Assembly (NCBI RefSeq): GCF_040712315.1
Contig: NC_134020.1
Coordinates: 49,213,751-49,277,750, forward strand
Length of the DNA stretch: 64,000 nucleotides
Direction of reading: 5' to 3'
DNA from: Castanea sativa
Lineage: Eukaryota > Streptophyta > Magnoliopsida > Fagales > Fagaceae
Both the position numbers and the translations under genes were made by a program. Each line of letters begins with the position of its first letter. Positions within the stretch are counted from its first letter, which is position 1. The notes below the pieces were generated by a model. The model was not told the DNA's origin. It ran no database searches and was given only the letters and a program-made list of their open reading frames with translations. This document shows, in pieces, positions 3,986-63,875 of the stretch.

Positions 3986-4228
3986 ATTTTCTTCTCTCTT
4001 CTTTCCCCACCACCACCACCACCACCACCTTTGACTCTGTCACAATCAAAAAATTGAATTTAAAAAAAATAAAATAAAATCAACACAGCAATTCAATGAA
4101 TAATAGACATCAACCATCCCCAACACAAAAACCCTCATAGTCAAACATTCATTCAACGGCAAATAATCAAACAGTTTGCAAGCCTTTCACAGATCTAAAT
4201 CATCATCAACCTTTTCAACCACCACACC

Positions 4229-16900: not shown

Positions 16901-19898
16901 AGTGTCATAGATTTTTGTTTATAGTCTGTCCCTAGCCCAAACCTGGAAAAAAGAGGAGGGTTGCGAATTGAATTGTGCTTGGTGTCATATTATAGGATTG
17001 TAGTAAGATCAGCTATGCTCTATAGTAATGAGTGTTAAGACTGTTAAGAAGTAACATGTTCATAAAATAAATGTAACTTAAATGAGAATATTAAGATGGA
17101 TAAGTAAAAATACAAGAAAATTTAGGATTCAAAATGAGGGTAGACGCTTGAAGATAGGAGTGACCCCTATTGATCAAAAGATGGGGGAGAGTTGCTTGAA
17201 ATAGTTTAGCCATGTGCAAAGCAGAGCGATTAATGCATCGGTGTGGAAGAGTGAGTTAATTCAAGTTGAGGGAACAGAAATAGGTAGAAGACCTAAAATA
17301 AAATTAGTAGTAATAAAAACATGTCAATTAAGGAGGTAATAAAGGGTATGACTTTGGATAGAATATAATGATGGGAACGAATACAGGTGGCCACCTAACT
17401 AGTTTCTAGAGGATCCATAACCGATCCCAAAATTCTGAAAACTAAGCCTTGGTTGTTGTAAAACAAGGACCCAGAATCCAAGTAGAGTGGGAACACGGTA
17501 ATTCCAGTATCTACCATCAAGTTATACAATTGATGTGTGAATTTTGAAGTCTTTGCTTGACTAGTAAAGAATTAAGTTTAATAAATCACTATCAATCCTT
17601 TGAAGGATACCAAAACTCTTATCCATAGAAATCAATGAAATCATTTATAAACAGAAGATTACACTCTCCATAAGGCCTTCTCAAAACTAATTAAAATAAC
17701 TTAAGATGCATACTCATATGGGTCAAGTGATACACTTAAGTAATCAATAGCATTTAAATCTAGTAAATTGTTTTACTTTTCCTGTTATTTTTTATAATAG
17801 TTCTACCCTGTTCTATTTTTTAATACAAATTGAAAGCACTAGCTATATCCAAATTTTATACAAATACAAGTATGCATGTATGCACAAACACAATGAGTAA
17901 ATAAAATTTTAACCAAAAAAAGTCCAAAACAAACACATGAATGTTATCCAAGAAAACTCAAATAGGTATTTGATTGTGTGAAGGTGAAGAATACCGTACC
18001 CCATGTGAACATCTGTTTTCTTGACCTTCAAAGAGGGACGAGAAATAAGCAGGATTATAGATAGAGCCTCCCAAAATGTCATCAGAATCTGAGGGTTGTC
18101 TAACTACAGCAGGAGTTGCAGGACTCAGAAAACTATTTCTTACATCGAAATCTGCTTCTCTAGAAGCTGTAGTGTCTACATATGAAACTCCCAACCTGTA
18201 AATCTGAATCCATAACAACGAGGACGACAACCTTACAGTAAACCCAATGATTTCCATTACCAGAGTGAGTTTTACTGAAAAGATAACGAATGTCCCATAA
18301 TAATCAGAAGAAATGTCCCTGCATACACATACAATTTCCACCAGGTGAGAGATCAGTATAGCCATTACCATCACTTAATCACAATATAACAAACACTCAC
18401 AGTCACACACACATGATGGTACATTTAAACACAGACTACTAGGATTCTAAAATTATTTTGCAACTAGGTCTTGTGCCAACATGTGAAGATGTAGACAGTA
18501 GAAACAACCACGTGCTGCTGCATGAGTGAATGGTTACACAATGAAATCAAATATTAATTTTTTGGGAGGCCACAGCTATGTCAAAGATTGCTTAATGTAA
18601 TAGACAGAACCTAGAAGACTTGTCCAAACAAATGCAAAATTTTTGTACGTAGAATTTAAATAAACTGATCTTTTAAAAACATTGGTATATATTGCGGGCT
18701 AACAAAGCAATTTGATGATGATAACGATGACGACAATGTTTCTCCATGTTTATAATAATAAATAATTGGCTAAAACTTAAGTATAATTCCTTACATGCTA
18801 TACTTTAAATTCCCCAATTAAATTCAACCATGTGCTTGCATTAGCAAACGAACAACATGGTTGAATTTAATTGTTCTTTAAAAAGACAAACTATTTTTGT
18901 TGTATTGGCCAATACAAACATGTGGTGGAGTTCAAATAGTGAACCTATGGTACAACACCTACGAAACTATACCTAAGTCCCTAAATAATAAAGGGTCCTG
19001 TTAATGGGTGCCCTTGTGCACCCATTAAGGTGGAATTTTACAATGCAGTCGACTGGCTTTTAATAAGGAGCCGAACCATTCTCAGTCTAAAGTCAATGGT
19101 TTTATCATGTTTTGCTATTTCCCAATGCAGGTAGGACCTTTTGTAGCTTCCTCAATAAGTGCACAAGGAATCAAAGATGCACAGACACGGACACAGGTAT
19201 AGTTACGATTCGGTGACACATGATACAGCAGATAGGACACCGTTATGACATGGGTAGGACACCCCAAATGAATCCATTGACAATTAAAGTGAAAGCTCAA
19301 CAAAGACTAAGCTAATCTACTCAAATCTTGTACTATTAATTATTACTTTTTTTTTTTCTTTCCCTTTCTTTTTAAAGAAACCAAATTTGAAATTGCACAA
19401 AAATTGAAATGCGTGGACAATATGTACATAAACAGAAATGAAAATTGCAATGCGGTAGAAAATGAAAAATGGGTAAGAAAAAAAAAAAAGAAAAGAAAGG
19501 AGAGACCAAATATCGTTAGTGAAGAGGATGAACCAAGAAACATCGAGAAGGAGAGCACAGAAGAGAAGAACAGCATAGGTACGCCCAAGTTTCTGACTGC
19601 TACTCTCAATGGCCACCAAAGCGAACAATGCTATCGCCAGATTTATCAGCAAAACCCCGTTGTACAACGCTCCCAGAGATCCAATCAACGCGGACCCTAT
19701 CTGGGTTTTTTTCACATTATCATAAAAATCAAATCTTTAATAAAATAATCAAGAAAGAAACCCTAAATAAGTGTTTGGGTGCCGAGAAAAATTGACCTGA
19801 ATGTAGATGAGAATGACAGCGACAGATTGAAGCCTGTCGTAATCGCGAAGAAAAGGCAGTAATTGCTCTCTGAAAGAACAGCAACAACAAAGCATCAT
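13912..19898 (-). CDS. Four-helix membrane protein (AGTRAP-like), full-length copy
   Basis: Five exons in consistent phase: 19797-19898, 19507-19700, 18000-18318, 15846-15941 and 13912-13947. Together they total 747 bp, 248 residues. The N-terminus is MMLCCCCSFREQLLPFL. Hydrophobic helices lie at ~23-47, 50-66, 76-94 and 106-135, the last two around LLLDVSWFILF and the conserved RLSSSLLWIQIYRLGVSYVD. The C-terminal ~110 residues are Ser/Pro-rich, probably cytosolic and disordered. It resembles plant proteins labelled type-1 angiotensin II receptor-associated protein-like; the biochemical role is unknown. The ATG is the first of two in tandem, with a Cys-rich start conserved in the two truncated copies. 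Intron 3 (15942-17999) carries an RTE-LINE remnant. Intron 3 also holds the left breakpoint of the tandem triplication at ~17751. The gene name is tentative; the exon model is strong. Confidence 0.82.
16470..16484. repeat. Poly-G tract
   Basis: Fifteen G in a row within TMEM intron 3, in a locally G-rich stretch (GGGTGGGGTAGGG). It could form a G-quadruplex, or its length could be a sequencing error. Confidence 0.85.
16980..17470 (+). mobile_element. Decayed RTE-type LINE 3' end
   Basis: The plus-strand translation, with frame breaks, follows the typical C-terminal end of plant RTE reverse transcriptases. It has a MLRWISKNTR-like start, then KIGVTPIDQKMGE, then FSHVQSR, then GRRPKIK, and finally NEYRWPPN. 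Several stop codons interrupt it. It lies in TMEM intron 3 in the opposite orientation to the gene. Confidence 0.6.
19003..19028. repeat. Small perfect hairpin in TMEM intron 2
   Basis: TAATGGGTGCCC and GTGCACCCATTA form an inverted repeat around a few bases. The corresponding place in unit 2 (~32092-32117) and unit 3 (~45896-45921) keeps most of the palindrome. A second inverted repeat, AAATTCAACCATG/CATGGTTGAATTT, lies at ~18825-18872. Confidence 0.6.
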
Positions 19899-28874: not shown

Positions 28875-30871
28875 CTATTTTCTAATCTGTGTGAAGAGCT
28901 CGGTAGGTTTTCCAGTTCCTCCTGTGCTTCCACTGAAAGCAGAAAAAACACTTACTATTTGGCTGTTGAAAGCCCCAAATCCACCACCAGAAAATCCCCC
29001 AGACCCACCAGCTGAAGCTACCCTTGCAAATCCAGCAACCCCTGAAGCCACACCAGCAAACCCACCACCAGTAGCAGCACTTGAAAACCCACCAGGTGAA
29101 CTAGTGCCAGTGAAGCCACCACCACCACCAAAACCACTGGGAGATCCAAAACCTGTGCCTGGTAGACCAGTACCAATCTGTCTTGATTGTCCAAAAGACC
29201 CAAGAATGGATCCCAGTGCTTGCTGTCCTGATCCCAGGGCCGGCCCACCAAAATTTGGGGCTAAGCGGAAATTTTATACGAGACATTTTTATATGAAACA
29301 TTAATTAAATAAATATATATATAATACTAATTAAATCAAGATTAATTTGATGTAAATATAGAAATTGATGAATAATAATAATTAAACTAAAGTTAATTTT
29401 ATATAGAGGATGGAATATCATTGAACTATAAATTTAAACAAAAAGAACTAGAAAACATATTATTTTTTTTAAAAAAGAAACTTATTTTAACTTGGATATA
29501 TAACTATGAATAGTTAAGTACAGTTGTAACATAAATTTTAATTTATATATTCTTTTTAAGAGAAAGAAATAGATAAATATTATTTGGTGCTTGGGTTTGT
29601 AGGATATTAGTTTACAAAAATTAAGATCTCAAACTATTAGAAGAGATTAGTTATCATTGATGATCTATCACATTTGTAATAATTTTTTTGAAACATTTTA
29701 GGGTTTCAATTGGTTTTAATTTCTATTGGTTTCCTATTTTGGAAGCCTTGTTAGAAATGAAAAAGAAAAATACTAAAAATATTGTAAAATATTCACAATA
29801 TAATGTGATAATGACTGTAATTGATGAAATTCAATAACTTAATTTATTTGTGTTTGAATTAATTTTTTATGTAATCGGTGACATGTTTGTTAAATTTAAA
29901 CTTAAACATATAATAAAATTTGTGGTATCTTTAACATCACTTAAAAAAATACTAATTATTTAAAAAATATTATATTTTTATAAAATTTTGGTCCTTTACA
30001 AATGAAAAAGTGGCCTTTTTTTTAGTAGGGAATTTTTTTTTTTTTTTGGTTGTGGGGCGGCCTAATTAGCCTAGGCCTTGAGCCGGCACTGCCTGATCCA
30101 ATGCTAAACCCAGTTTGAGTTGGAGCTTGAGCTGTTGTTCCAGTACTGAAACCACCAGAGAATGCACTCGAATTTGTTGGTTGAGATGGTTGTGAAGACT
30201 GGGGAAGCTGGAAGCTAAAAGATGCAGGACGAAACAGCTGTCCGCTAGGAACCGTTATGTCAAAAGCTGAGCTCATCGGACTTGATGCTGCATTACCAAA
30301 TGGACCACCAAATGGATTTGATTTTGGAGCAGTTGCAGTAGGGGTTGAGCCAATACCAAATGCACCAAGGCTTCCCAAACTAAATTTTGCTGTGTTACTT
30401 GTCTCAGGAGCCTCCTCCTCCATCTCATCCTCTTCTGTTTCTGCAACATCCAAACTTCCATTCTTTTCTCCAGTTGTCCTCCCAGAAGTTGGGAGTGGTG
30501 TTGGGAATAGAACACGTGCAGTAGATGGCTGTGCTGGTTGAGCATTCAATGTCACATTAGGTGCAGGTTTTGCCATGTTACCGAAACTGGGCTGGCTTCC
30601 AGATGTCAGACGGGTTGAAATTTCAATTGTAGGGTCAGTTGTTACTGAAGGTTCAAGCTTGGATTCAATTTCACCTTTGGGAGGCTCAGACTGCAGAGAT
30701 GATACTTGTTTACTAGCAGCCTTATCTGTTTTCAAACTAGATTTGGCCATAGGAGGTTGAAGCTCTGTTTTAGGAGACTCGGATATTGGAGTAGATAAGG
30801 GCACCGATGTTTTAGGAGCCTGCAAGGAAGAGGAACCAGAGGAAGAGGCAATTAAAGAAGGGGAAGCTGAT
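28875..30871 (-). pseudogene. NUP214: Truncated NUP214 3' tail, copy 1 (interrupted by a hAT element)
   Basis: This copies the last exon of NUP214 from the stop codon to the breakpoint corresponding to 55965 in the intact gene. The upstream coding region is absent. It lacks all the 10-residue [10 protein letters not shown] repeats and the following VDDIPAK segment, has a small deletion beside the hAT insertion, and is split at 29235-30091. The 5' part stays open (267 codons ending inside the transposon). Directly upstream on the same strand lies the truncated TMEM copy of unit 2. The transposon and repeat loss make a functional product unlikely. Confidence 0.88.
29235..30091. mobile_element. 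857-bp hAT non-autonomous element
   Basis: It is flanked by an exact 8-bp target duplication CCTGATCC (29227-29234 and 30092-30099). Terminal inverted repeats are CAGGGCCGGC and, on the inverse, CAGTGCCGGC. The uninterrupted site is present in units 2 (~43930) and 3 (~55190). The interior is AT-rich with no transposase. Confidence 0.92.
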
Positions 30872-32197
30872 CATATAGTGACTTGTTTTACTTTTCCTGT
30901 AATTTTTTTTAAATAGTTCTACCCTATTCTATTGTCTAATACAAATTCAAAGCACCAGCTATATCCAAATTTTATACAAATACAAGTATGCATGTACGCA
31001 CAAATACAATGAGTAAATAAAATTTTAACCAAAAAAGTCCAAAACAAACACATGAAAGCCAAGAAAACTCGAATTGGTATTTGTTTACGTGCAAGTGAAG
31101 AATACCCTACCCCATGTGAACATCTATTTTCTTGACCTTCAAAGAGGGACGAGTAATAAGCAGGATCATAGATAGAGCCTCCCAAAATGTAATCAGAATT
31201 TGAGGGTTGTCTAACTACAGCAGGAGTTGCAGGACTCAGAAAACTATTTCTTAAATCATAATCTGCTTCTCTAGAACCTGTAGTGTCTACATATGAAACC
31301 CCCAACCTGTAAATCTGAATCCATAACAATGAGGACGACAACCTTACAGTAAACCCAATGATTTGCATTGCCAGAGTGAGTTTTAATGAAAAGATAACGA
31401 ATATCTCATAACCCTCAGAAGAAATGTTCCTGCATACACATAAAATTGAGAGATCAGTATAGCCATTAACATCACTTAATCAAAATGTAACAAACACTCA
31501 GAGTCACACACACATAATGGTACATTTAAACACAGACTACTAGGATTATAAAATTATTTTGCAACTAGGTTTTGTGCCAACATGTGAAGATGTAGACAGT
31601 AGAACAACCACGTGCTGCTGCATGAGTGAATGCTTACACAATGAAATCAAATATTAATTTTTTGAGGGGCCACAGGCCCACAGCTATGTCAAAGATTGCT
31701 TATGTAATAGACAGAACCTAGAAGACGTGTCCAAACATGCAAAATTTTGTAAATAGAGTATGAATAAACTGACTATCTTTTCAAAGCATTGGCATATATG
31801 ACGGGTTAATATAGCAGTTTGATGATGATGACGAGGACAATGATGTTTCTCCATAGATATAATAATAAATAATTGAGTAAAACTAAAGAAGATTATCTTA
31901 GTTGCTATACCTTGTCTCCCTAGTTAAATTCAAACATTTACATGGTTGAATTTAATTGTTCTTTGAGAAGATAAAATTACTTAGTTATATTGGCCAATAC
32001 AAACATGTGGATGAATTCAATTAATGAACCTAAGGTACAACAACACCTAAGAAACTTTACCTAAGTCCCTAAATAATTAAGGGTTGATTTAATGGGTGCC
32101 CTTGCGTACCCATTAAGGTATTATTTTATAACGAAGTCAAGCCACTTTCTTTCTAAACTCCATATTTTTATTAGCTTTTTGCTATTTTTCAATGTAA

Positions 32198-32883
32198 GAG
32201 CATCCACACCAGCTCATGTAAAAACTTCTAAAATAAACATAACTACCAATTTTACACATTTTGAGCAAAAAAACACCCACATCAGTGGGTTTAAAAATGT
32301 TTAAAATTTTGTAAACCCATCCCCGAGCTACAGTAACCGTGTATATTAACATGGTCACTGTAGCTCGTTTAAACCATTATTTTATTATTTCCGTTCGCTC
32401 CTTTTTTTCTCTCTCCTTTTCGTGCTCAACCAACCCAGCTAAAACTCAACTCCTCATCCTCTTCTTTTTCCTCAGATGCACACAAACACACCCACACACA
32501 AACACATCCACACAGAAAATCAACACAGACACTTGCTCAAAAAAAAAAAAAACATAAATACACAAACATAGATCGGCGCTTGATCGGAGCGTGGATCAGA
32601 GCAGCCGGAGCTTGGACCGGATCTGATCGGAGCTAGGGAGAGTAGATCGGAGCTCGGATCAGAGCTAGGGAGAGTAGATTGGAGCTCGGAGCTCGGAGCA
32701 AGTGGATCAGAGCGTATCGGAGTGGATCGGAACTCGGATCGGTGCTCGGAGTGACTGGATCGGAGCGTATCGGAGTGGATCGGTGCTTGAAGCGACTGGA
32801 TCAGAGTGTATCAGAGTGGATCGGTGCTCGGAGCAGATCGGGGCAGATCAGAGAGTTGATCGGGAGGGAGAGTTGATCTGGGT

Positions 32884-32937
<54 letters not shown>

Positions 32938-33140
32938 TAATCAGAAATGAAGAGAGGCGCGCGTATAGGAATTGGAGAGAAATAATAAAAAAAAGTGAGG
33001 AAATTATTATTTAATTAATAGAAGTGGTAGGATAGATGAACTGATGTGGGTGTTTTGTAAAAGTAAATGTGTAAAATCTTAAAAGTAGGTTTTTTGTGTA
33101 AAATAGACGGAATCTTTTAAACGAGCTGATGTGGTTGCTC
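32198..33140. mobile_element. 943-bp PIF/Harbinger-like MITE (unit 2 only)
   Basis: It is flanked by TAA on both sides (32195-32197 and 33141-33143). Terminal inverted repeats are GAGCATCCACACCAGCTC and, on the inverse, GAGCAACCACATCAGCTC. Unit 3 has one intact site at ~46000. The interior contains CT- and CA-rich sequence, imperfect tandem repeats of 'gatcggagc'-type motifs (32573-32880) and a GA microsatellite. No transposase was found. Confidence 0.88.
32887..32934. repeat. (GA)n microsatellite inside the MITE
   Basis: Perfect GA tract of about 24 units following the 'gatcggagc' minisatellite. Confidence 0.95.
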
Positions 33141-34325
33141 TAAGTATGACCCTTTTGAAGCCCCTTTATAACGATTGCATGTGAGCAACAAAAAGCAAAA
33201 AATCAAAGTTGAAGCTCAACAAAGAATAAGCTAACCTATTCTAATTTTATGCCAAGTACCATTAATTATTACTTTTTCCCCTTCTTTTTAAAGAAACCAA
33301 ATCTGAAATTGCACAGATTGAATGCGTATAATAAATACTATCTTTAGTAAAAATTATTGGTGTTCTACTATTCTTTATGAAATAATTAGTTATGTACCAT
33401 TATTTTGTAACTTGAGTTACACAAGTTCGAGATTGCCTTATAACTTAAGTTTCATATAAAATAGACATCAAGTTTATTATGTAACTTGATGACTATTTTT
33501 TTATGGCTATTGAGTTACATGGCAAACTTGAGTTTCAAAAGCCAATAATTTGGGCTATTCGACCATTTTCACCACCTAAGATTACAAGAGTGAACAATAT
33601 GTATATAAACAGGAATGAATAATGTAGTGAAAATGGAAGAGAAGAACAGAAGAGATCATATATCGTGAATGAAGAGGATGAACCAAGAAATATCCAGAGG
33701 GAGAGCACAGAAGAGAAGAACAGCATAGGTACACAAAAGTTTCTGATTGCGACTTTCTATGGCCACCAATGCGAACAACGCTATCCCCAGATTAATCAGC
33801 AAAACCCCGTTGTACAATGCTCCCAGAGATCCAATCAACGTGCACCCTATCTGTTTTTTTTTTTTTTTTTTTTTTTGAACATTATCAAAAATCAAAATAT
33901 CCAATTCATCAACAAAGAAACCGTAAATAAAAACAAAAAAAGTGTTTGGATACCGAGAAAATGAAACCTGAATGTAGATGAGGATGACGGCGAAGGATTG
34001 AAGCCTATCGTAATCGCGTAGGAAAGGCAGTATTTGCTCTCTTAAAGAGCAAGAATAAGAACAACAACAAAGCATCATAAGCAAACAGAGTGTTTAAGAA
34101 AAAACCCAATCGAAAAGATTTGGTTTTGGCCGGAGGAGCAAGAACAAGAACAAGAACCAAGCCAAATTAGCAATATATATATGCCTCTGTTTGTTTGTTT
34201 GTTTGTTTTTTTTTTTTTTTTTTGGGTTTTATGTTTAACTGAAAGTTGAATAGGCAAAGTTTTGTCAATAGAACTCCATACTTTATAGGTCACTTCACTG
34301 ACTAACTTTCCTCTTTACCCATTTT

Positions 34326-43405: not shown

Positions 43406-44681
43406 CTATTTTCTAATCTGTGTGAAGAGCTCGATAGGTTTTCCAGTTCGTCCTGTGCTTCCACTGAAAGCAGGAAAACCACTTCCTTGTTGGCTGTTGA
43501 AAGCCCCAAATCCACCACCAGCTGAGGGAGCACCGGCGAATCCACCACCAGCCGCGGGAGCACCAGCAAATCCACCACCAGCTACAGGAGCACCGGCAAA
43601 TCCGCCACCAGCTGTGGGAGCACCAGCAAATCCGCCACCAGCTGAGGGAGCACCAGCAAACCCACCACCAGAAAATCCCCCAGACCCACCAGCTGAAGCT
43701 ACACTTGCAAATCCAGCAACCCCTGAAGCCACACTAGCAAACCCACCACCGGTAGATGATATACCAGCAAAGCCACCACCAGTAGCATCACTTGAAAACC
43801 CACCAGGGGAACTAGTGCCAGTGAAGCCACCACCACCAATACCACTGGGAGATCCAAAACCTGTACCTGGTAGACCGGTACCAATCTGTCTTGATTGTCC
43901 AAAAGACCAAAGACCGGATCCCAGTGCTTGCTGTCCTGATCCAATCTGTGCTGGCTGGCCAAACCCGGTTTGAGTTGGAGCTTGAGCTGTTGTTCCAGTA
44001 CTGAAACCACCAGAGAATGCACTCGAATTTGTTGGTTGAGATGGTTGTGAAGACTGGGGAGACTGGAAGCTAAAAGATGCAGGACGAAACAGCTGTCCGC
44101 TAGGAACCGTTATGTCAAAAGCTGAGCTCATCGGACTTGATGCTGCATTACCAAATGGACCACCAAATGGATTTGATTTTGGAGCAGTTGCAGCAGGGGT
44201 TGAGCCAATACTAAATGCAAGGTTTCCCAAAATAAATTCTACTGTTTCTGCAACATCCAAACTTTCATTCTTTTCTCCAGTTGTGCTCCCAGAAGTTGGG
44301 AGTGGTGTTGGGAATAGAACACGTGCAGTAGATGGCTGTGCTGGTTGAGCATTCAATGTCACATTAGGTGCAGGGTTTGCCATGTTACCGAAACCGGGCT
44401 GGCTTCCAGATGTCTGACTGGTTGAAATTTCAGTTGTAGGGTCAGTTGTTACTGAAGGTTCAAGCTTCGATACAAGTTCACCTTTGGGAGGCTCAGACTG
44501 CAGAGACGATGATACTCGTTTACTAGCATCCTTATCTGTTTTCAAACAAGATTTAGCCATAGGAGGTTGCAGCTCTGTTTTAGGAGACTCAGATATTGGA
44601 GTAGATAAGGGCACCGATGTTTTAGGAGCCTGCAAGGAAGAGGAACCAGAGGAAGAGGCAATTAAAGAAGGGGAAGCTGAT
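43406..44681 (-). CDS. NUP214 FG-tail copy 2, open for 407 codons; possible 3' exon of a chimeric gene
   Basis: This is the NUP214 last exon from the natural stop (43406, ...IELFTQIRK) to the duplication breakpoint. Apart from an in-frame deletion of the [14 protein letters not shown] stretch and one [10 protein letters not shown] repeat fewer than the intact gene (five, not six), the frame is undamaged over its length. It has no NUP214 promoter, start codon or N-terminal domains. A pyrimidine-rich tract and CTTGCAG ending at 44630 precede the in-frame codon GCT at 44627-44629. That could serve as a 3' splice site for the truncated TMEM lying 240 bp upstream on the same strand. Otherwise it is simply an unprocessed gene fragment. 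Confidence 0.6.
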
Positions 44682-46959
44682 CATTTAGTAACTTGTTTTA
44701 CTTCTCCTGTAATTTTTTTATAATAGTTCTACCCTATTCTATTCTCTAATACAAATTCAAAGCGCCAGCTATATCCAAATTATATACAAATACGAGTATG
44801 CATGTACGCACAAATACAATGAGTAAATAAAATTTTAACCAAAAAAGTCCAAAACAAACACATGAAAGCCAAGAAAACTCAAATAGGTATTTGTTTACGT
44901 GCAAGTGAAGAATACCCTACCCCATGTGAACATCTATGTTCTTGACCTTCAAAGAGGGACGAGTAATAAGCAGGATCATAGATAGTGCCTCCCAAAATGT
45001 AATCAGAATCTGAGGGTTGTCTAACTACAGCAGGAGTTGCAGGACTTAGAAAACTATTTCTTAAATCATAATCTGCTTCTCCAGAACCTGTAGTGTCCAC
45101 ATATAAAACCCCCCACCTGTAAATCTGAATCCATAACAATGAGGACGACAACCTTACAGTAAACCCAATGATTTGCATTGCCAGAGTGAGTTTTAATGAA
45201 AAGATAACGAACATCCCATAATCCTCAGAAGAAATGTTCCTGCATACACATAAAATTGAGAGATCAGTATAGCCATTACCATCACTTAATCAAAATGTGA
45301 CACTCACATTCACACACACATAATGGTACATTTAAACACAGACTACTAGGATTATAAAACTATTTTGCAACTAGGTTTTGTGCCAACATGTGAAGATGTA
45401 GACAGTAGAAACAACCGCGTGCTGCTGCATGAGTGAATGCTTACACAATGAAATCAAATATTAATTTTTTGAGGGGCCACAGCTATGTCAAAGATTGCTT
45501 ATGTAATAGACAGAACCTAGAAGACGTGTCCAAACAAATGCAAAATTTTGTAAATAGAGTATGAATAAACTGACTACCTTTTCAAAGCATTGGCATAAAT
45601 GACGGGTTAATAGAGCAATTTGATGATGACGACGAGGACAATGATGTTTCTCCATAGATATAATAACAATAAATAATTGGGTAAAACTAAGGAAGATTAT
45701 CTTAGGTGCTATACCTGGTCTCCCTAGTTAAATTCAAACATCTACATGGTTGAATTTAATTGTTCTTTGAGAAGATAAAATTACTTTAGTTATATTGGCC
45801 AATACAAACATGTGGATGAATTCAATTAATGAACCTAAGATACAGCAACACTTAAGAAACTGTATCTAAGTCCCTAAATAATTAAGAGTTGCGTTAATGG
45901 GTGTCCTTGCGAACCCATTAATGTATTATTTTATAATGAAGTCAAGCCACTTTCTTTCTGAACTCCATATTTTTATTAGCTTTTTGCTATTTTCTAATGT
46001 AAGTATGACCCTTTTGAAGCCCCTTTCTAACGATTGCACGTGAGCAACAAAAAGCAAAAAATCAAAGTTGAAGCTCAACAAAGACTAAGCTACCCTATTC
46101 TAATTTTGTGCCAAGTACTATTAATTATTACTTTTTTCCCCTTCTTTTTAAAGAAACCAAATTTGAAATTGCACAGATTGAATGAGTATAATAATTACTA
46201 TATTTGGTAAAAATTATTAGTGTTCTACTACTGTTTATGAAATAATTAGTGATTAACTATTATTTTGAAACTTTAGTTTTATAAATCCGATTTTGCCGTA
46301 TAACTTAAGTTTCATACAAAATAGACATCAAGTTTACTGTGTAACTTGATGGCTATTTGAGTTACATGGCAATCTCGAGTTTCAAAATAGTTATAAATCA
46401 CTGATTATTTCGCAAACCGTGGTACAACGCCAATAATTTGGGCTATTCGACCATTTTCACCACCTAAGATTACAAGAGTGAGCAATATGTATATAAACAG
46501 GAATGAATAATGTAATGAAAATGGAAGAGAAGAACAGAAGAGACCAAATATCGTGAGTGAAGAGGATGAACCAAGAAACATCCAGAGGGAGAGCACAAAA
46601 GAGAAGAACAGCATAGGTACGCAAAAGTTTCTGATTGCGACACTCTATGGCCACCAATGCGAATAACGCTATCCCCAGATTAATCAGCAAAACCCCGTTG
46701 TACAATGCTCCCAGAGATCCAATCAACGTGCACCCTATCTGTGTTTTTTTTTTTTTTGAACATTATCAAAAATCAAAATATCCAATTAATCAACAAAGAA
46801 ACCGTACATAAAAACAAAAAAAGTGTTTGGATACCGAGAAAATGAAACCTGAATGTAGATGAGGATGACGGCGAAGGATTGAAGCCTATCGTAATTGCAT
46901 AGGACAGGCAGTATTTGCTCTCTCAAAGAGCAAGAACAAGAACAGCAACAAAGCATCAT
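43406..46959 (-). CDS. Candidate chimeric gene: TMEM exons 1-3 fused in frame to the NUP214 tail
   Basis: Proposed exons: 46849-46959, 46545-46738, 44921-45239 (from TMEM) and 43406-44629 (from the NUP214 tail). Introns 1 and 2 have GT-AG ends. TMEM exon 3 ends in phase 0 (TCA CAT GGG) before GTAGGG. The proposed acceptor CTTGCAG is also followed by phase 0 codons (GCT CCT AAA), giving a 291-bp intron and a 615-residue product: four hydrophobic helices and a tail with FG and GGGF repeats. The TMEM part differs from the full copy by substitutions only, with no stops. If splicing does not occur, read-through gives ~221 residues ending LARKQIPI. Expression is not shown by the sequence, so this is a hypothesis with a specific junction to test. 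Confidence 0.4.
44921..46959 (-). pseudogene. Truncated TMEM copy 3 (exons 1-3, reading frame intact)
   Basis: Exons 46849-46959, 46545-46738 and 44921-45239 are all open, with splice donors and acceptors conserved, unlike copy 2. Exons 4-5 are missing, so the original C-terminal ~40 residues cannot be made. Substitutions against the full copy include IECRNQ for IESSSQ and YRWGVLYVDTT for YRLGVSYVDTT. The 5' side matches the full gene upstream of the ATG, so promoter elements may have been copied. It is labelled pseudogene for want of its natural end; it may instead be the 5' half of the chimeric gene 43406-46959. Confidence 0.7.
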
Positions 46960-53836: not shown

Positions 53837-54101
53837 GCCTTAAAAAGGCTTTTGTCCTGGGTTTGAAGTTTAGCACCTGCAGGGCTCCCCCACGAAACCC
53901 ACCCCATATTAACAGACACTCTCGAAACTCCCGACTCGGTGCAAACGTAGGTTCATGCTTCATTCTTTTGGGGCGCATATGAGCTGCATTTAGCGAACTC
54001 AAATTAGGGCCAGCGGGCCCACAAGCCTTTGCCATTTGATGAGCACCTTAATTACGTTATATATCAGCTAGATAACTGTTACAAACTTACAATGGCGAAA
54101 C

Positions 54102-54106
<5 letters not shown>

Positions 54107-54147
<41 letters not shown>
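54107..54147. repeat. (TA)n microsatellite, unit 3
   Basis: TA tract of ~20 units in the NUP214 3' flank, homologous to 42893-42926. Confidence 0.95.
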
Positions 54148-54151
<4 letters not shown>

Positions 54152-54629
54152 GACAACTTTGATGAATGAATGACTGATCTGTTCCCATTCAGACGGGCTC
54201 ACGTTTCAACTATGCATGTTTTGGTCGCTCATCATTAAGATATTGATCCTACCAAACAACATGGCTCATCACCAGACTTTGCATGGTCTCCTTTGTTACA
54301 GGTACTGTCAGTCTGTCATGCAAGGGAAAAAGGGGAACAACCACCAGTCACACTTCGGAGCAGCTAAATTAGTTTGTCTTGCTACTTGCTACTACACTTG
54401 TGTTTAGAAATAATAAAAAAAAAAAAAAAAAACTTTAACCTATTGGAAGTTTATATCAATGTACATGACTCGGAATCTTATGACACATATCATGATAAGA
54501 TGAGCCAACGACCCAATGAATCTATCATTTACCAATTTTAGGTGGTTGTCAAGTAACTGCCTTCATTGGAATGAGACTTTTGTGATCAAATTAAGCTTCC
54601 TATGAGTTTTTAGCCATAACCCAATAAAA

Positions 54630-57600
54630 CTATTTTCTAATCTGTGTGAAGAGCTCGATAGGTTTTCCAGTTCCTCCTGCGCTTCCACTGAAAGCAGAAA
54701 AACCACTTCCTTGTTGGCTGTTGAAAGCCCCAAATCCACCACCAGCTGAGGGAGCACCGGTGAATCCACCACCAGCCGCGGGAGCACCAGCAAATCCACC
54801 ACCAGCTACAGGAGCACCGGCAAATCCGCCACCAGCTGTGGGAGCACCAGCAAATCCGCCACCAGCTGCCGGAGCACCGGCAAATCCACCACCAGCTGAG
54901 GGAGCACCAGCAAACCCACCACCAGAAAATCCCCCAGACCCACCAGCTGAAGCTACACTTGCAAATCCAGCAACCCCTGAAGCCACACTAGCAAACCCAC
55001 CACCGGTAGATGATATACCAGCAAAGCCACCACCAGTAGCAGCACTTGAAAACCCACCAGGGGAACTAGTGCCAGTGAAGCCACCACCACCAAAACCACT
55101 GGGAGATCCAAAACCTGTACCTGGTAGACCGGTACCAATCTGTCTTGATTGTCCAAAAGACCCAAGAACGGATCCCAGTGCTTGCTGTCCTGATCCAATC
55201 TGTGCTGGCTGGCCAAACCCAGTTTGAGTTGGAGCTTGAGCTGTTGTTCCAGTACTGAAACCACCAGAGAATGCACTCGAATTTGTTGGTTGAGATGGTT
55301 GTGAAGACTGGGGAGACTGGAAGCTAAAAGATGCAGGACGAAACAGCTGTCCACTAGGAACCGTCATGTCAAATGCTGAGCTCATCGGACTTGATGCTGC
55401 ATTACCAAATGGACCACCAAATGGATTTGATTTTGGAGCAGTTGCAGTAGGGGTTGAGCCAATACCAAATGCACCAAGGTTTCCCAAACTAAGTTCTGCT
55501 GTGTTACTTGTCTCAGGAGCCTCCTCCTCCATCTCATCCTCTTCTGTTTCTGCAACATCCAAACTTTCATTCTTTTCTACAGTTGTGCTTCCAGAAGTTG
55601 GGAGTGGTGTTGGGAATAGAACACGTGCAGTAGATGGCTGTGCTGGTTGAGCATTCAATGTCACATTAGGTGCAGGGTTTGCCATGTTACCGAAACTGGG
55701 CTGGCTTCCAGATGTCTGACTGGTTGAAATTTCAATTGTAGGGTCAGTTGTTACTGAAGGTTCAAGCTTCGATTCAATTTCACCTTTGGGAGGCTCAGAC
55801 TGCAGAGATGATACTTGTTTGCTAGCATCCTTATCTGTTTTCAAACTAGATTTGGCCATAGGAGGTTGAAGCGCTGTTTTAGGAGACTCGGATATTGGAG
55901 TAGATAAGGGCACCAATGTTTTAGGAGCCTGCAAGGAAGAGGTAATTAAAGAAGGGGAAGCTGATGATGAGGATGTTGGCACTGTTAGGTTAGCATCTGC
56001 ACTTGCATTAGAAGTGGTGAAAGGTCTGCTCAGGGGCATTGAAGATAAAAAGGTTGGGGTAGCTGATGAGGATTGAGGAGCTGTCATTGACTTGATCATT
56101 GGAGATGATGGAGCTGATGGAGCTGAAAGTACCAAAGATGTAGAAGAAACTAGTACATTTTCACCAGGCTCACTTTTGCCCGCGGGAAATTGAAATTTTC
56201 CACTCAGGGTGGACACTGCAGAAACACCAAATGTGGAAGAGAATGGAGAGTCATAATTTTCTCCAGATTCAAAAAGTGAACTTTTTGTATTTGAAGCCTT
56301 ATCCTTAATAGTTCCAATTGTGGAAGTAAGCGTAGTTTCTTTACTACTTGAATTAAACATTTCACTGGATTTCTTCAGCAATGACACTGTTTGTGTGGGG
56401 AACATTGTGGATATCGATGGCTTTTGATGTTGGTTAGTTTCAGACTGCGCCATAGACTTGGCCTCATTTAACGGAACTGAACCAGGATTGTAAGTTATTT
56501 CACTGAAGGAATGTCCTATGGTGATATCGCAAGTTTCCCTTGGGCAATCTTTTCCTATTACAGGTGAAAATTCAGACGCTGACAGAAATGACAATGCTGA
56601 AACATTGTCTGTTTGCAATGTAGGAAACTTTAGCCCCACAGATTGTGATGGTGCTGGAAGCTCATTCGCCCGTGTGAATTGAATTGGGTTCTTAGAGGCT
56701 TGTTTTGTAGATGTATCCTGAATGCCTGCAGAATACACAACTCAAATGGAAAAGCGACGATCAGCCACTGTTTCTTATTAAGCTTCTAACTGTAAGTCAA
56801 AAAAACATTGTGGTTTTCACTTAGTTTGGCTCACCTTTGTCTTGAGATGAATAGGTTGAAGGGGTTATGCGAACCAGTGGGCGCTCAGCTGCTGACACAT
56901 TAAGCATGTGAGGGTTAAAATGCTGCTTATTTACTAGAAGGGATGACCCATTCATGCTTGCCTTTTGGTGTTCTTGCAAAAGAATCCGTTTAACAGTTGT
57001 TTTTGAAGGTTCAAACTTAGCCCAACTCTGCATGCAAGTTATCGGAAAAAACTTGTCAGTTTGATTGTTCAGCACTAATTGGTGAGAAGCAAAGATTTTC
57101 TTACACATAACTGCTTGGAAAACTTGCTAAAATTAACTTGAACTTTACCCAAGTTTGGAAAATTAAGAGAAATGAGAGGATTGAGTTATCTATTCAAGAG
57201 ATTCTCACCTTCAGTCTACATATCCCTACGTGCATGCATGTAAATACATCTACCTTGATAGATAGAAAACGATACAAGAAGTATAACATTGTTAAAATTT
57301 TTAAAGCTTTTCACCTGAATAGAGGTGTTTCTATTATTCTTCTTTGCACGATATCACCAAATACAAGCAGAATAATCTAAACAAACTCTATATATAACTA
57401 GTGACAAAACAATATGCAAGTCAATCACATCAATAACAACCCAGCAGATTCTTTTCGCAAATTTGGTAAAGATTTGGCCTTCAAAGTCTAACTAACGTCA
57501 GCCAGATCAAGTTGAGCTCTAAAACTGAGCATCAATTGGTAAAGAGTACAACATTTAATGCTTAAAGTGGCTTATTTAATTTTTTGGAATACAAAATATA

Positions 57601-60600
57601 GAAACAGTCAGGAAATATTACCCGATCTAATGAGTCTCTCCTCCTCCTCACTGTTTCTGGTTCAGAGCTCTTCATAGCACTCAATTGTTTTCTCCGAGAC
57701 TCATCTTTAGCAGCAGTAGAACCAGAAGAATGCAAGAGTTTCTTAGTTGAAGGGGTATCACTAACTTTTGTTGCATCTGGAGAGCTGAATGAGGCATCAT
57801 AGGGGATCCCTATTGTTTCAAACAACTCCTTTTTTACATTCTGTTGTTTTGCAGGTGTACTTATATTTAGAACTGCCATTTGTTTTGACAGACATTCAGA
57901 AAGTTGCTCAGCAGCTGCTAATTGTGAACTCATTGTGCTGTGTAAACTATGCAAGGACTGAGTCTGTCTGCAACAAGAATGTGTCGCTTAGGCAAAAATT
58001 AGAAATTAATCCACTTAGGTTCAGAGAGCTAAAACTAAGTAGCCTTGTGAATTTACCCTGCTATTGGCATCCTCAAAGTACACAATATATTGATCGATTG
58101 TGAAGATAACTTGACCATTCTTTAGTTGGAAGTAAAATTTGAAATATACATTGAAGAGGATGAATTCAATTGTATTTCCTAAACAAAAGACAACAAAATG
58201 CATTTATCATACCTTGAAGGCCTAAATTTACTCTGTTGAGCTCTCCAACCTACATGAGATCCACCATTTTCACTAAATTTATTGAGTTCAAGGTTGTTGA
58301 AATGCCTTTCCAATTCAATTAATTGATTGGTCAAATCCTGGGACAGGGAGAAAAATACAAAATTTTATTGAAAACTCAGGCGGTAAACGTATATGTCTAG
58401 TGTAAAATAACTGATAGGTTACCTGACTCATTTGTAATATATGACGACGCTTCATCTCATGTTCAGAACTCAACTTCTGGCGATTCCAGAGGTCCCAATA
58501 TCGGCTATCAGAAGCTTGCTTAACAATGCCTTCCATGTATATTTTCCTTGCCAAAACTGAGTCAGTCAGACAATTATCAGTAAGTTAAATTAATTTGTAA
58601 CAAACAAGAGAAATTTAGGTATTGAGATTTTATGTGATGATGTTGTCTTCAAATTACATCATTGGTACTTAATGGAAGGGAAAGTGCGACACAAATTAAA
58701 AGTAAAACAGGACATTCATTTTGAAATAGAGGTAGGTCTCTATCACCTCATAAAACCTCATGGGAGGAAATGAAGTTTATCTAAAGATAACAAAATATAA
58801 CATAGAATTAACTTAGTTCTTAAAAGAAACTGTAAAAATGATTATAGAGTAATAATTGTAAAGGGCCTAATGTATCTGGAACTCATTAGACATCAACGTG
58901 GAAGCCATAAGGAATTTCAAGCAAACTGGTGCAGACCGATCAATTACCAAGAACTTAATAGGTATAGCTAATTGTCCACCTTAATCTCTTCTCCCCAGAG
59001 CAAAGTCCACTTCAGGCCTTCTCAACTCTGATACTATGGGAAACCTCATTCAAGGTTTTCAGAGAAACCACTTCCTTGACAGTGTGTTGAAAATTTTAAA
59101 CTTTATGACACATTCCTTAACTTTTTTCACATCTTGACAATGTTTTTGACATACTCCTTTCCAAGTAATTCCATTTTAACACACTACCATCATTATTCCA
59201 TATCACAATTTTCAAGAACCATAATTTCAACTCTAACACAAGCTTCCACACAATTTATCTGAGCGCTAGAGAAAATACTACAGCACTGTAATACAACCGC
59301 ATTAAATGCACTTGTACTGTTAGGAGATAGTGAGAACCTTAGATTTGACCATGCTAGGACCCCTCTTTTTCTTTTTTCTTTTTTAATTGATAATTACGAT
59401 CTCCCAATGGATCTTGAATTCATGATCTCACCCTCCACATTACTTTACAAGAGGAAGAGATGCCATTTGAGCTAGAGCTTATTGCCAGGACCCCTCTAGT
59501 TGATGTTATAACAATATCTAATATATCTCTCTTCAGGTTCTGAAATCAATAAAAAATAAATAAAATACTGTTAATTCCAATGATACCTTTTCCAATAGAA
59601 CAATACCTTGTACAGTTTTATCAAGAAGATTCTCGATCTCACCAAGTCGTTCATCCATTATGCTCTACAAAGTCCAGAGAAAACCAAAATTCAAATATCA
59701 GTGATGGAATTTCAGAATTACAGCAATAGAGAGCATATATGTAATACCAAAAGGAAAATTACCTAAAATTCAAACAAGTTGGATATAAATATTTTTTACT
59801 GTAAGTTACACACGAACAAAATTATATAGTTAATAATCCACCAAATATGAACAACTCTACGAACAATGTATTACAAACACAAGGAAAATGTTCACAGTGA
59901 TACGTACACTCAGACAACTGGAAGAACAGTTTATGTGAAACAATACCATCAAGAGCAAAACAAATGAAAAGGAAAATTATTCTATTCAGCAAAGCCCTAA
60001 TCCAACTTTTTTTTTTATAAGTCAGCAAAGCCCTGATCCAACTACCAGAAGTCAGCAAAGAAGTTTGCTTCAATGATTACCAATTCACCAACTCATGTAA
60101 ATTCATACCCATTTTGAGAAAAACCAATAATTTACCACCACAACTGACAACTTGATCATTTGTAAAGTGTCCTCATTCCAGTTGTAGTATGAGACATATT
60201 TTGAGATATTTCCAGCTAGTTATATAGCTTAAGACTACTGCCATGGGTTTAGGAAGGAACTATACTTGCAATCTTTTGCAGAGTACATGAATAGCAATGA
60301 AGAATGCCTTTACATACCAGTTCTAGGAGATTCTTTACCTAATAAAATTATTTTTACTTGTTAGTTTCTGACTGACCTTTGGGTTGTATGTTAAAAAAAT
60401 GTGTAGGGTTTTTTTTTTTTTTTGGGTGTGTGGCTAGGTCTTTGGAGAAGCACCTTTACAGAAAGATGCTACTCTTATCAAACTCCCTCACCAGCTTCAC
60501 TTTATTATTTTCCATTTCACTGGGGTTTAATACAAGTTAAAATTAAACGTGTTGAGGAATCTTTTAGCAAAGTGAAATATGTGCATTTCTCTTGTAAATG

Positions 60601-63600
60601 GTAACAAGGGTAACCATCCAAGAGTTCCCTTGAAAAATAGTGATTAGAGAAAAGGCATTGACATTTCCATTAATGCCCATCCACTTTAAGAAGGAAGGCT
60701 ATCCTTGACAACTATGTAAATTCAGTTGATGTCATAGCAGGTGTGCATTCATGTTGAGGAGGGTTTTTTTTGTATGAATAAATTTTTTATTTCCAAACAG
60801 GAAGGCCTCCTCCAGCATCAGAGGAAAAAACCTACACAACAAAGGGATTCAGAGAAATCCCAGAGCTGCCCAACAAAAGAATTTTGCATGGCCCACTCAC
60901 CTAAACACATGAGGGGCTTGGTTAGCAGCTTGGGGAGGGGGGGGGGGGGGGGGGAACCCAGTTAAAACAACAAAAATCAAATTCAATTGACAAACTAACA
61001 GTGTCCAAAATAACAGCGTCCAAAATAACAGCTGAAGATTGCCAACTAGCAACTCCACCTTTGAAATTAATAGCTTCAACACACGGATTAGAAACCCCTG
61101 CAAAACACACTTTGTTCAGTTGTAACTGCCTAGATATCACAACAGCCCATCTAAAAGCTTCTGCTTCTGCAACTTCAGGTTCTGTATTTAGAAACAACCT
61201 TCTGCTTCCCTTTCTAAGGCCTTATTCTTTAAAAATAAATCCTCATGATAAGTAAGATTCAATAACTCAATTTAGGTTTTTCTTCTAAAACTCATCCATT
61301 TTGAGGTTGGCAAGTGCAATGTTGGAGAGAGTATTTAGAAAACTCTAAAAAACATTGGCTATCTACTGAATCTAATACAGCAAAAGACAGAGTCTAGTTT
61401 CTCATAACCAAAATCGTGCTGGAAACCATCTTGTTTCCCAGGTTCAGATAACATATGAAAGACTGAGAGACGGTTAACATGGACAAGCTTCTAGAGCTGC
61501 TTTATTAACTTAAAAGGGGGGATATAATAGAAATTAGAGTCATACAAATCCACATTGATTGACTCTTACACACACACATCTGTGTTTTCTAAGTTCCACC
61601 CTCTCTCATCAACAGTCTGATTAAGAGCATTTGGCATTACCAAGTTCCATTTAAAGCCATCTTCTTCAATGTTCAGCAAAATTTTTAACACATACAAGTA
61701 CTTTTTACTTCATCTAGTCCCTTGTCTAATGATTTCCACAATCTCCAAGATTGGCTAGATCCAAAGGGACCTTTATTGTTGTCAGACTTAGCTCTGCTTA
61801 AAGTTCCTATTTTTTTTTATACTAGGATTTTTTTTTTTTTTTGAAAATAGGGGGGTTAAGTTCCTTTGAGGTTTTTTCCTTAAATCATTCCCCCATATTT
61901 GTTCTTAGGATTGGGCTGACTTTTATTAGGCCACTGCCATCTCACTTTATCTTGCAAAAGCTAGTCTCCCTTAAGGTCTAATCGAAACAACAAGACTGGA
62001 GAATTTTTCCTCTCCCATTATATTCTTCTTTAAAAATGTGTTTGGTTGCACCTACAGAAAGAGAAGGGAAAGGATAAGGAAAAGGAAAGAAAAATATTTT
62101 CCCTTGGGTGAGTTTGGATATAGGGAGGAATGGAAAGAAAAAAAGAAAAGGTATATTTCCTTTGTTTGTTTTGCAAATAGAAGGGAAAGGGAAAATGTGT
62201 GTTTTTACCTTTATGCCCTTATATATATCCAATTGACATATTTCTATACTTTTCTGTTTAGTTTGCAAATATAAATTAAAAATAGAAAAGATATGTCTTT
62301 TGTATTTATTAGATTTTAAATGAAAAAACATTTTACGCTCTACCAAAATTGAGTCAAATATGAAACATTACCTTCCATATTCCGCATTTCTCACAAAGGG
62401 TCCTCATGCCTTCCTCCAATGCTTCAACTGAACTTTTCTGATTGATGGTGCAGGCATCCCTGAAACCACCCTCGGCTTCTATAGATTCCAAAAGTGTATC
62501 AAGCTCTTTGGTCAGCTCGTTTATCTGGAGTGAAGAGACAAAGGAACACTAAGAGGAATTGGGTCTTCCAAAGGGTGATAGAAAAGTAAATTAGACTTGA
62601 GAATAAGACCATTATCTCAAAACTTTTTAAAAAGTTAGCATAGACGTCCTATCATACTTGTGAACATATTAGCATAGCATAATCAACCTTTAACTCAGTC
62701 ATAGCTGGGACAGCATTTGTGTTAGTCTTAAAAAATGCTACCCTCAAATGCTAACTCTCAACTCTTACTCAAATTCTAGTCAAATTTGAAAGAAATAAGA
62801 CATGTACATTACATTTCCAAATTGTTTTGATGAGTTCAGTTCAGAATTCAGCATGGCTGACGGGGGCTGAGTCCTGTAATTTTCCTTGGAAGGATGAACG
62901 TTATGGTTGCCATACTTTCCCAATGCAAACTTTTCCTGTGAAGACGTTTGTAAGCTATGAACAGAAGGTGATGATTCAATATTCCCTGCCCCTACTGAAG
63001 TTCTCTGTCCCCCAATCTGAACTGGTCTACCAGAAGAATTTACTGAAGTTGATGTACTGGTGGAATCCTTTAAATGTAAAGGTTTAACAGCTAGGCCTCC
63101 AGAAAGATTTGAAGCACCATAAGAAAGGCCAGAGTTTTCAGTTCGGTTGCCTTGAATAGAACCTGAAGGAAAAAGTGAGGATCTTGCATTACTGTCTTTT
63201 GGAAAGATGGAATTTCCACTTGACAGCGACTGAGATGAAGCACTCTGTAAGCTAGTTGATCTAATATTTCCTAGAAATTGCTCGCTTGTCCCAACACTAT
63301 TTGATAATTTCTTATGATCTGATTGCCCAGGGATATCAGCTGGACTATTTACTCCAAAAGCAGGGTTAGATCCAATTTTTTGAGTTCCGGTCTTGCTTAA
63401 GTCACTAAACACGTTAAAAGAAGCTTTATTAGATGATTGGTCTAATTTTGTGCTTTGCTGGCTGGAAGGCTGTATTGGTTGACCATCTGTTTCTTGGGAA
63501 AGCTTTGTAACAGGGACAGTTTGTAGTCTATCAGCTTCAAAGGACAATGAACTTAGCTGGGATTCAACTTTCGAGGTCTTCAATATACTGTCTTTAAAGG

Positions 63601-63875
63601 ATACTGGACTGGCAACAACCGGAGAAACTGAATCAGAAGGCTTTGGATCAGTTATCTTTAAAATATCACCAACTCCTTTCATGTTAAGTTCCTTTTTGTT
63701 CCCCTCCTGGAACCGAAAACCCAAAGACACAAGCTCTGATTCTGGTTTGTCCAATCCAAGTGAAGATTTGGATAGATCACATTGTACAGGTACTGCTGCA
63801 TGAGTATCCACTACCTCATCTTCCTCCTCAGAAGGGGCAGAAATAACCTCAGGTGGAACTGCAGTTTCTCTAGTA
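54630..63875 (-). CDS. NUP214: Nuclear pore protein NUP214 (LNO1), C-terminal part; 5' end beyond the window
   Basis: Eight exons in consistent phase: 62813-63875, 62372-62524, 59607-59664, 58423-58556, 58213-58337, 57622-57967, 56835-57027 and 54630-56725 (stop at 54630). The first is an FG-containing, Ser-rich linker. The next five form the conserved helical region ([85 protein letters not shown]), predicted coiled coil. The last is a Ser/Thr-rich then FG/GGGF tail with six [10 protein letters not shown] decapeptides, ending [12 protein letters not shown]214 sits on the cytoplasmic face of the pore and aids mRNA export; its N-terminal beta-propeller is outside the window. It is the only NUP214 copy here with upstream exons. 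The long intron 59665-62371 holds LINE debris. Confidence 0.9.
54745..54925 (-). repeat. 30-bp coding minisatellite ([10 protein letters not shown]) in NUP214
   Basis: Six tandem 30-bp units encode decapeptides with variable ninth residue (S, A, T, V, A, S). Five units are present at 43510-43660 in unit 2 and none in unit 1. Confidence 0.92.
60740..61250 (-). mobile_element. LINE remnant with RNase H-like segment, in a NUP214 intron
   Basis: A minus-strand frame at 60950-61197 resembles the RNase H-like domain (RVT_3) of plant LINEs: [20 protein letters not shown], then NPCVEAINF, then [15 protein letters not shown], then [13 protein letters not shown]. Catalytic residues are mostly lost. 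A 15-20 base G-tract (~60936-60953) follows. The limits are approximate. Confidence 0.6.

Follow-up and report, generated by a model that had tools for sequence, protein, structure and literature searches.

The 64,000-nt stretch of Castanea sativa DNA analysed here (the window) carries a chimeric gene in which the first three exons of a TMEM gene, a relative of At1g55535, are followed by the FG/GGGF tail of the nucleoporin gene NUP214. The structure of this gene is near certain. We consider its transcription in C. sativa likely and a selected function in this species unlikely, the sequences lending weak support to such a function. Overall, the locus is probably best explained as a Fagaceae chimera that originated by tandem duplication and that in C. 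sativa is now nearly without constraint at the residue level. Because constraint is nearly absent, the putatively expressed protein is most likely dispensable or mildly useful.

Organization of the locus and of the chimeric gene

All genes discussed at the NUP214/TMEM locus lie on the minus strand, including a neighbouring RING gene, and follow one another on that strand as intact NUP214, a repeat-rich spacer, the chimera described here (unit 3), the same spacer, a second chimera (unit 2), once more the spacer, intact TMEM and the RING gene. Both parents are close by in the same orientation, and the chimera lies between them with the head of the downstream gene and the tail of the upstream gene, as a tandem duplication would leave them. 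The last exon of intact NUP214 spans 54630-56725, and seven further exons are located at 56835-63875, the gene running past the window; the seven introns inside the window have phases 0, 0, 1, 0, 2, 0 and 1, so that four of them are phase 0. The intact TMEM gene occupies 15846-19898, with exons at 19898-19797, 19700-19507, 18318-18000 and 15941-15846 (the last short exon not included). Reading through its intron 3 (17999-17958) gives a short C terminus and then a stop, and a Morella rubra TMEM (P0204) is annotated with the same kind of ending, thus retention of intron 3 may be natural in the TMEM gene. A Pfam search for TMEM gave no family above the cut-off, no solved relative of TMEM was found at E 0.1, and a literature search on AT1G55535 found no paper naming it. 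The gene downstream of TMEM encodes a RING-finger E3 (2825-4039). Gene models of Dillenia and Brassica merge TMEM with the RING gene, which points to an old TMEM/RING neighbourhood.

In unit 3, the TMEM head consists of exon 1 (46849-46959, ATG at 46959), exon 2 (46545-46738), whose donor TTG/GTCTCT is the same as in the intact copy, and exon 3 (44921-45239), which contains the last long helix and a hydrophilic stretch and has a phase-0 end, GGG/GTAGGG. It is followed by a chimeric intron of 291 bp (44630-44920), in which the start of TMEM intron 3 is joined to sequence of the NUP214 last exon, and by exon 4 (43406-44629), which comprises 407 codons of the NUP214 tail and a stop. TMEM homology stops ~240 bp inside intron 3, and the breakpoint itself (44681-44686) consists of the intron sequence ending in TTACTA, ~4 filler bases, and NUP214 sequence starting with ATCAGCTTCCCC. 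The same breakpoint junction is found in unit 2 (28875-34078), with exons at 34078-33968, 33850-33657 and 31429-31111 and a tail from 30819. This second copy is broken, since the donor of its intron 2 has changed from GT to AT at 33656 and an insertion of ~850 bp (about 30099-29232) interrupts its tail; protein P0005 is its annotated remnant. In a self-alignment, the spacer of unit 1 was 85-91% identical to those of units 2 and 3. The upstream region of TMEM, which the first-pass annotation had described as retained in the chimera, is indeed present, in blocks of 41-293 bp that are spaced further apart in the unit-1 copy.

These features are consistent with a tandem duplication whose breakpoints fell in the last exon of NUP214 and in TMEM intron 3. 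It would have set the head of the downstream TMEM gene, i.e. its promoter side and exons 1-3 with their membrane-length helices, ahead of a duplicated NUP214 tail that kept its 3' end. Since the phase of TMEM intron 3 is 0 and an acceptor-like CTTGCAG lies in phase in the NUP214 exon, a transcript could be spliced to encode a membrane protein of 615 residues whose FG tail is disordered. A second duplication would then have generated units 2 and 3, after which unit 2 decayed while the frame of unit 3 stayed open. Transcription presumably starts from the TMEM promoter side and would be followed by splicing over the 291-bp intron. In the resulting protein the helices of the head would be inserted in a membrane, with the FG tail exposed on one of its sides. 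In NUP214 this tail binds nuclear transport receptors, and by analogy the tail of the chimera may bind them as well.

The first-pass annotation had proposed a phase-0 donor at 44920 and a phase-0 CTTGCAG at 44630, spliced over 291 bp into a protein of ~615 residues, and both the coordinates and the phases proved correct. Exon 3 ends with CACATGGG, followed by GTAGGG at the start of the intron, and in-silico splicing of 46959-46849, 46738-46545, 45239-44921 and 44629-43406 resulted in 615 amino acids in frame without a stop. The donor GGG/gtaggg is weak, yet it resembles the donor of intact TMEM, GGG/gtacgg. In intact NUP214, the CTTGCAG motif is ordinary coding sequence (Ser-Leu-Gln, the CAG ending at 55929), indicating that the chimera made its candidate splice site from exon sequence. 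The zone free of AG upstream of this acceptor measures 47 bases, with a pyrimidine fraction of 0.82, a combination reached by 2.1% of the 3,752 same-strand AG sites; at the intact NUP214 site the AG-free zone is 31 bases. An earlier claim that the chimera had strengthened its pyrimidine tract by a gain of ~16 bp did not hold. The extra sequence is 15 bp (5 codons) long, and its residues were present in all four other aligned rows with sequence at this position, namely those of Q. robur and Q. suber together with P0006 and P0007, which indicates that the tract is ancestral and was lost from intact C. sativa NUP214. Close to the site, pyrimidines make up a fraction of 0.82 in both the chimera and intact NUP214 (the latter read one base out of register). 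On these two grounds, a gain in the chimera was rejected.

The predicted protein retains the membrane-helix region of the TMEM (At1g55535) family, matching 61 of 65 invariant columns, and lacks the family's own C-terminal exon or exons after intron 3. NUP214 contributes sequence of its last exon only; the other parts of that protein, which include an N-terminal propeller and a coiled coil, are absent. The tail is FG-rich, with 7 FG and 17 GF in the chimera compared to 9 and 18 in the matching stretch of intact NUP214. Two structure models had mean pLDDT values of 56.4 and 47.7; the latter, low-confidence model is that of the chimera and predicts five helices between residues 9 and 151, followed by a tail almost without secondary structure.

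Related chimeras and their origins

The chimera was first proposed as a possible new gene. However, the same protein is already predicted by NCBI as C. sativa LOC142608470 (P0001), with 100% identity over 100% of its length (615 of 615 residues), thus it is not unknown to the databases. Its C. mollissima counterpart CMV_030486 (P0002) has the same junction and the residues specific to unit 3. Both are named only 'uncharacterized' or 'hypothetical', and the names do not state their parentage. A search for the same junction in related species, as the first-pass annotation had suggested, was therefore positive for C. mollissima, whereas Quercus has related chimeras with other entry points into NUP214. 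As read from the proteins, the entry into NUP214 is at a natural phase-0 exon (SWAKFE) in the 837-aa Q. robur chimera (P0003), at SKSEPG in the 620-aa Q. suber chimera (P0004), and at the same natural exon as in Q. robur in the chimeras of three Populus species (P0009-P0011). When the Q. robur head was used to search proteins of 460-1465 aa, 18 were found, comprising 7 TMEM-NUP214 chimeras, 8 TMEM-RING gene models and 3 others. Besides the identical NCBI model, an orthologue in C. mollissima and analogues in Q. robur, Q. suber and three Populus species support a chimeric gene made by tandem duplication with predicted in-frame splicing. A read-through annotation of neighbours was rejected for the chestnut locus, as it would give the order NUP214-TMEM and not TMEM-NUP214.

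The ancestry of the chimeras was examined with a head tree of 38 rows and a tail tree of 28 rows, chosen by hand from 239 proteins. In the head tree, the five Fagaceae chimeras were recovered as a clade (100/98) whose sister group is intact Castanea TMEM, with Fagus outside, indicating that this head lineage predates the split of Castanea and Quercus. The three Populus chimeras paired with three rows of intact Salix TMEM (100/98), and in the tail tree they grouped with Salix viminalis NUP214 (100/100). The Fagaceae tails fell, without resolved order, into a group (100/100) that also contains chestnut NUP214 and two further rows. In constrained trees, a single origin of all eight chimera rows was rejected for the heads (p=0.00055, to be read with caution as the Populus heads are on a long branch of 0.45) and for the tails (p=3.2e-6). 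Gene conversion at both ends could imitate separate origins, but both the head and the tail would have had to undergo it, and these phylogenies argue that the Fagaceae and Populus fusions arose independently. Within Fagaceae a single tail origin was not rejected (p=0.34); one Fagaceae origin is not proven, because the Castanea chimera enters inside the last exon of NUP214 and that of Q. robur at a natural exon.

The recurrence is partly explained by TMEM intron 3 being phase 0, as are four of the seven NUP214 introns in the window. It might be supposed that the NUP214-TMEM neighbourhood recurrently makes membrane-anchored FG proteins, since codirectional neighbours with these phase-0 introns would put many duplications in frame, and that selection kept the products as a new class in Fagaceae and, independently, in Populus; we regard this as doubtful.

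Selection, frame retention and alternative explanations

To score selection, nonsynonymous (N) and synonymous (S) changes were counted over 342 tail codons free of gaps in all three copies, and over 205 head codons, with 1 multi-state codon set aside. Changes private to the tail amounted to 16 N and 5 S in unit 3 (ratio ~1.1), 20 N and 5 S in unit 2, and 6 N and 4 S in intact NUP214; the N count of unit 2 is inflated, as several changes adjoin its insertion. Private head changes were 10 N and 5 S in unit 3, and 6 N and 2 S in unit 2. No private branch departed from neutrality, including that of intact NUP214 (p=0.24), although the counts are small. The comparison of the unit-3 tail with intact NUP214 that the first-pass annotation had proposed gave no significant difference (p=0.42), and the N/S counts of the unit-3 tail did not differ from those of the broken unit-2 tail either (p=1.0). 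The older path, from the unit-1 head to the heads of units 2 and 3, was constrained (24 N and 18 S, ratio 0.40, p=0.0035), and in the head tree the stem lengths of the chimera (0.114) and the intact gene (0.118) were alike. Together these indicate that the head was constrained for part of its history, perhaps before the chimera was formed.

Between C. sativa and C. mollissima, 10 of 208 residues differ in the chimera head compared to 2 of 205 in the intact head (Fisher p=0.036), and 24 of 376 in the chimera tail. An acidic stretch kept in C. mollissima has been lost in C. sativa, and the tail carries a deletion of 45 bp. Invariant sites were defined as 65 columns in 27 intact proteins chosen from the best 120 of 574. 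The unit-3 head breaks four of these, R73C, D74N, S122C and L196W (P0123 numbering), against 1/65 in C. mollissima, 1/64 in both Q. robur and Q. suber, and 8/61, 4/63 and 4/63 in the Populus chimeras; intact rows, scored by leave-one-out, break 0 to 3. The tail had been described as undamaged, which holds for its open frame and not for the residues, with a neutral-like ratio in the tail and four broken invariant positions in the head. R73C and D74N, both in exon 1, affect the invariant RD(Y) motif that precedes the first membrane helix (46894-46899). This motif was changed independently in the Populus chimeras P0009-P0011 (R73S, D74N and Y75I), and is unchanged in those of C. mollissima and Quercus.

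The frame was kept better than drift predicts. The probability of an open frame under drift was ~0.034 for the private branch of unit 3, and all three private non-repeat indels in the tail were multiples of three, versus 1 of 17 noncoding indels (p=0.0035), so that selection may have acted on the frame, either weakly or in the past. These two results are not independent, unit 3 was picked as the more open of two copies, and the drift estimate ignores sequence exchange at the tail end. Such exchange is apparent from the tail end and 3' flank (43449-42763), which over 687 bp differ from intact NUP214 (53976-54673) only by length changes of 1 bp and 10 bp in two simple repeats. Chimera and NUP214 tail differ at 24 codons before 43957 (15 N and 9 S); between 43957 and the stop there are 8 differences, all of them nonsynonymous. 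A recent conversion, in one direction or the other, refreshed the tail end and 3' flank, which in part accounts for the open frame without selection.

A functional new gene, in which selection keeps the FG tail anchored in a membrane, for example to gather nuclear transport receptors there, would account for the frame being open in both C. sativa and C. mollissima, for the analogues in Quercus and Populus, for the frame-keeping indels and low probability of openness under drift, and for the few invariant sites broken by the C. mollissima and Quercus heads. We nevertheless consider it unlikely, as the tail in C. sativa evolves like that of the broken unit-2 copy, the acidic stretch was lost in C. 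sativa and not in C. mollissima, two FG motifs fewer are present than in NUP214, and the databases list open frames only, so that openness is ascertained.

The locus may also be a transcribed pseudogene whose intron is mostly retained, yielding a short TMEM protein that ends 13 residues past exon 3, with the NUP214 part serving only as 3' UTR. The poor donor GGG/gta and the continuation of the exon-3 frame to a stop at 44881-44879 fit such a transcript, as does the C terminus annotated for the intact Morella TMEM. However, donors of the same class are used in intact TMEM models (P0123) and the NCBI model is the spliced form, which makes retention as the main outcome quite improbable. An artefact of assembly or annotation is very hard to sustain: tandem copies that share 687 bp of almost identical sequence can be misassembled, but the C. 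mollissima protein comes from a separate genome and has the same junction and unit-3-specific residues, and units 2 and 3 differ at 267 of 6,468 noncoding columns. The tandem-duplication chimera with little remaining constraint is the reading we prefer.

Comparable fusions and other copies of the NUP214 tail

In Drosophila yakuba, tandem duplications have been described to make chimeric structures with new regulatory and coding combinations (PMC5460883). The chestnut chimera resembles these in its origin, and differs in being from a plant, in requiring two successive duplications, and in that the same gene pair was fused independently in another lineage. Among Oryza fusion genes, the parents were in the same region for 2 of 35 type I genes and purifying selection was found in 90% of gene pairs (PMC9199173). 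The chestnut chimera is of this same-region type with both parents still present, but its unit-3 tail shows no detectable purifying selection. Our search for plant NUP214 chimeric genes, judged from titles and abstract openings, found nothing related.

The human leukaemia fusions DEK-NUP214 and SET-NUP214 likewise place a foreign N-terminal part on the NUP214 FG tail. They are somatic, their partners are soluble, and they have no common descent with the chestnut chimera. If the chestnut protein exists, it would hold a disordered FG tail at a membrane in the absence of all other NUP214 parts, and nature would thereby have tested what tethered FG sequence does. The independent fusions in oak and chestnut and in poplar are replicates of one event, with which one can ask if the order of genes and the phase of introns foretell which chimeras arise and last. 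Arabidopsis NUP214 null mutants are embryo-lethal (PMC4203139), which makes the exchange of tail sequence between NUP214 and the chimera of interest.

Pieces of the NUP214 tail were also observed at other loci. There, elements that measure ~770-1000 bp and have long inverted repeats contain 280-400 bp of this tail, corresponding to 55648-55373 or 55648-55251 of the window. The details come from four loci, L004, L006, L007 and L008 (C4, C12, C1 and C3 of G000), where the elements lie at about positions 1250-2050 (up to 2270 in L004); a fifth copy is present on C5. No direct repeat flanking the L008 element was found, and that at L006 is ambiguous owing to a simple repeat. Direct repeats flank the inverted repeats at L004 (9 bp) and L007 (up to 11 bp), a layout that we take to be the one expected of Mutator-like elements of the Pack-MULE type.
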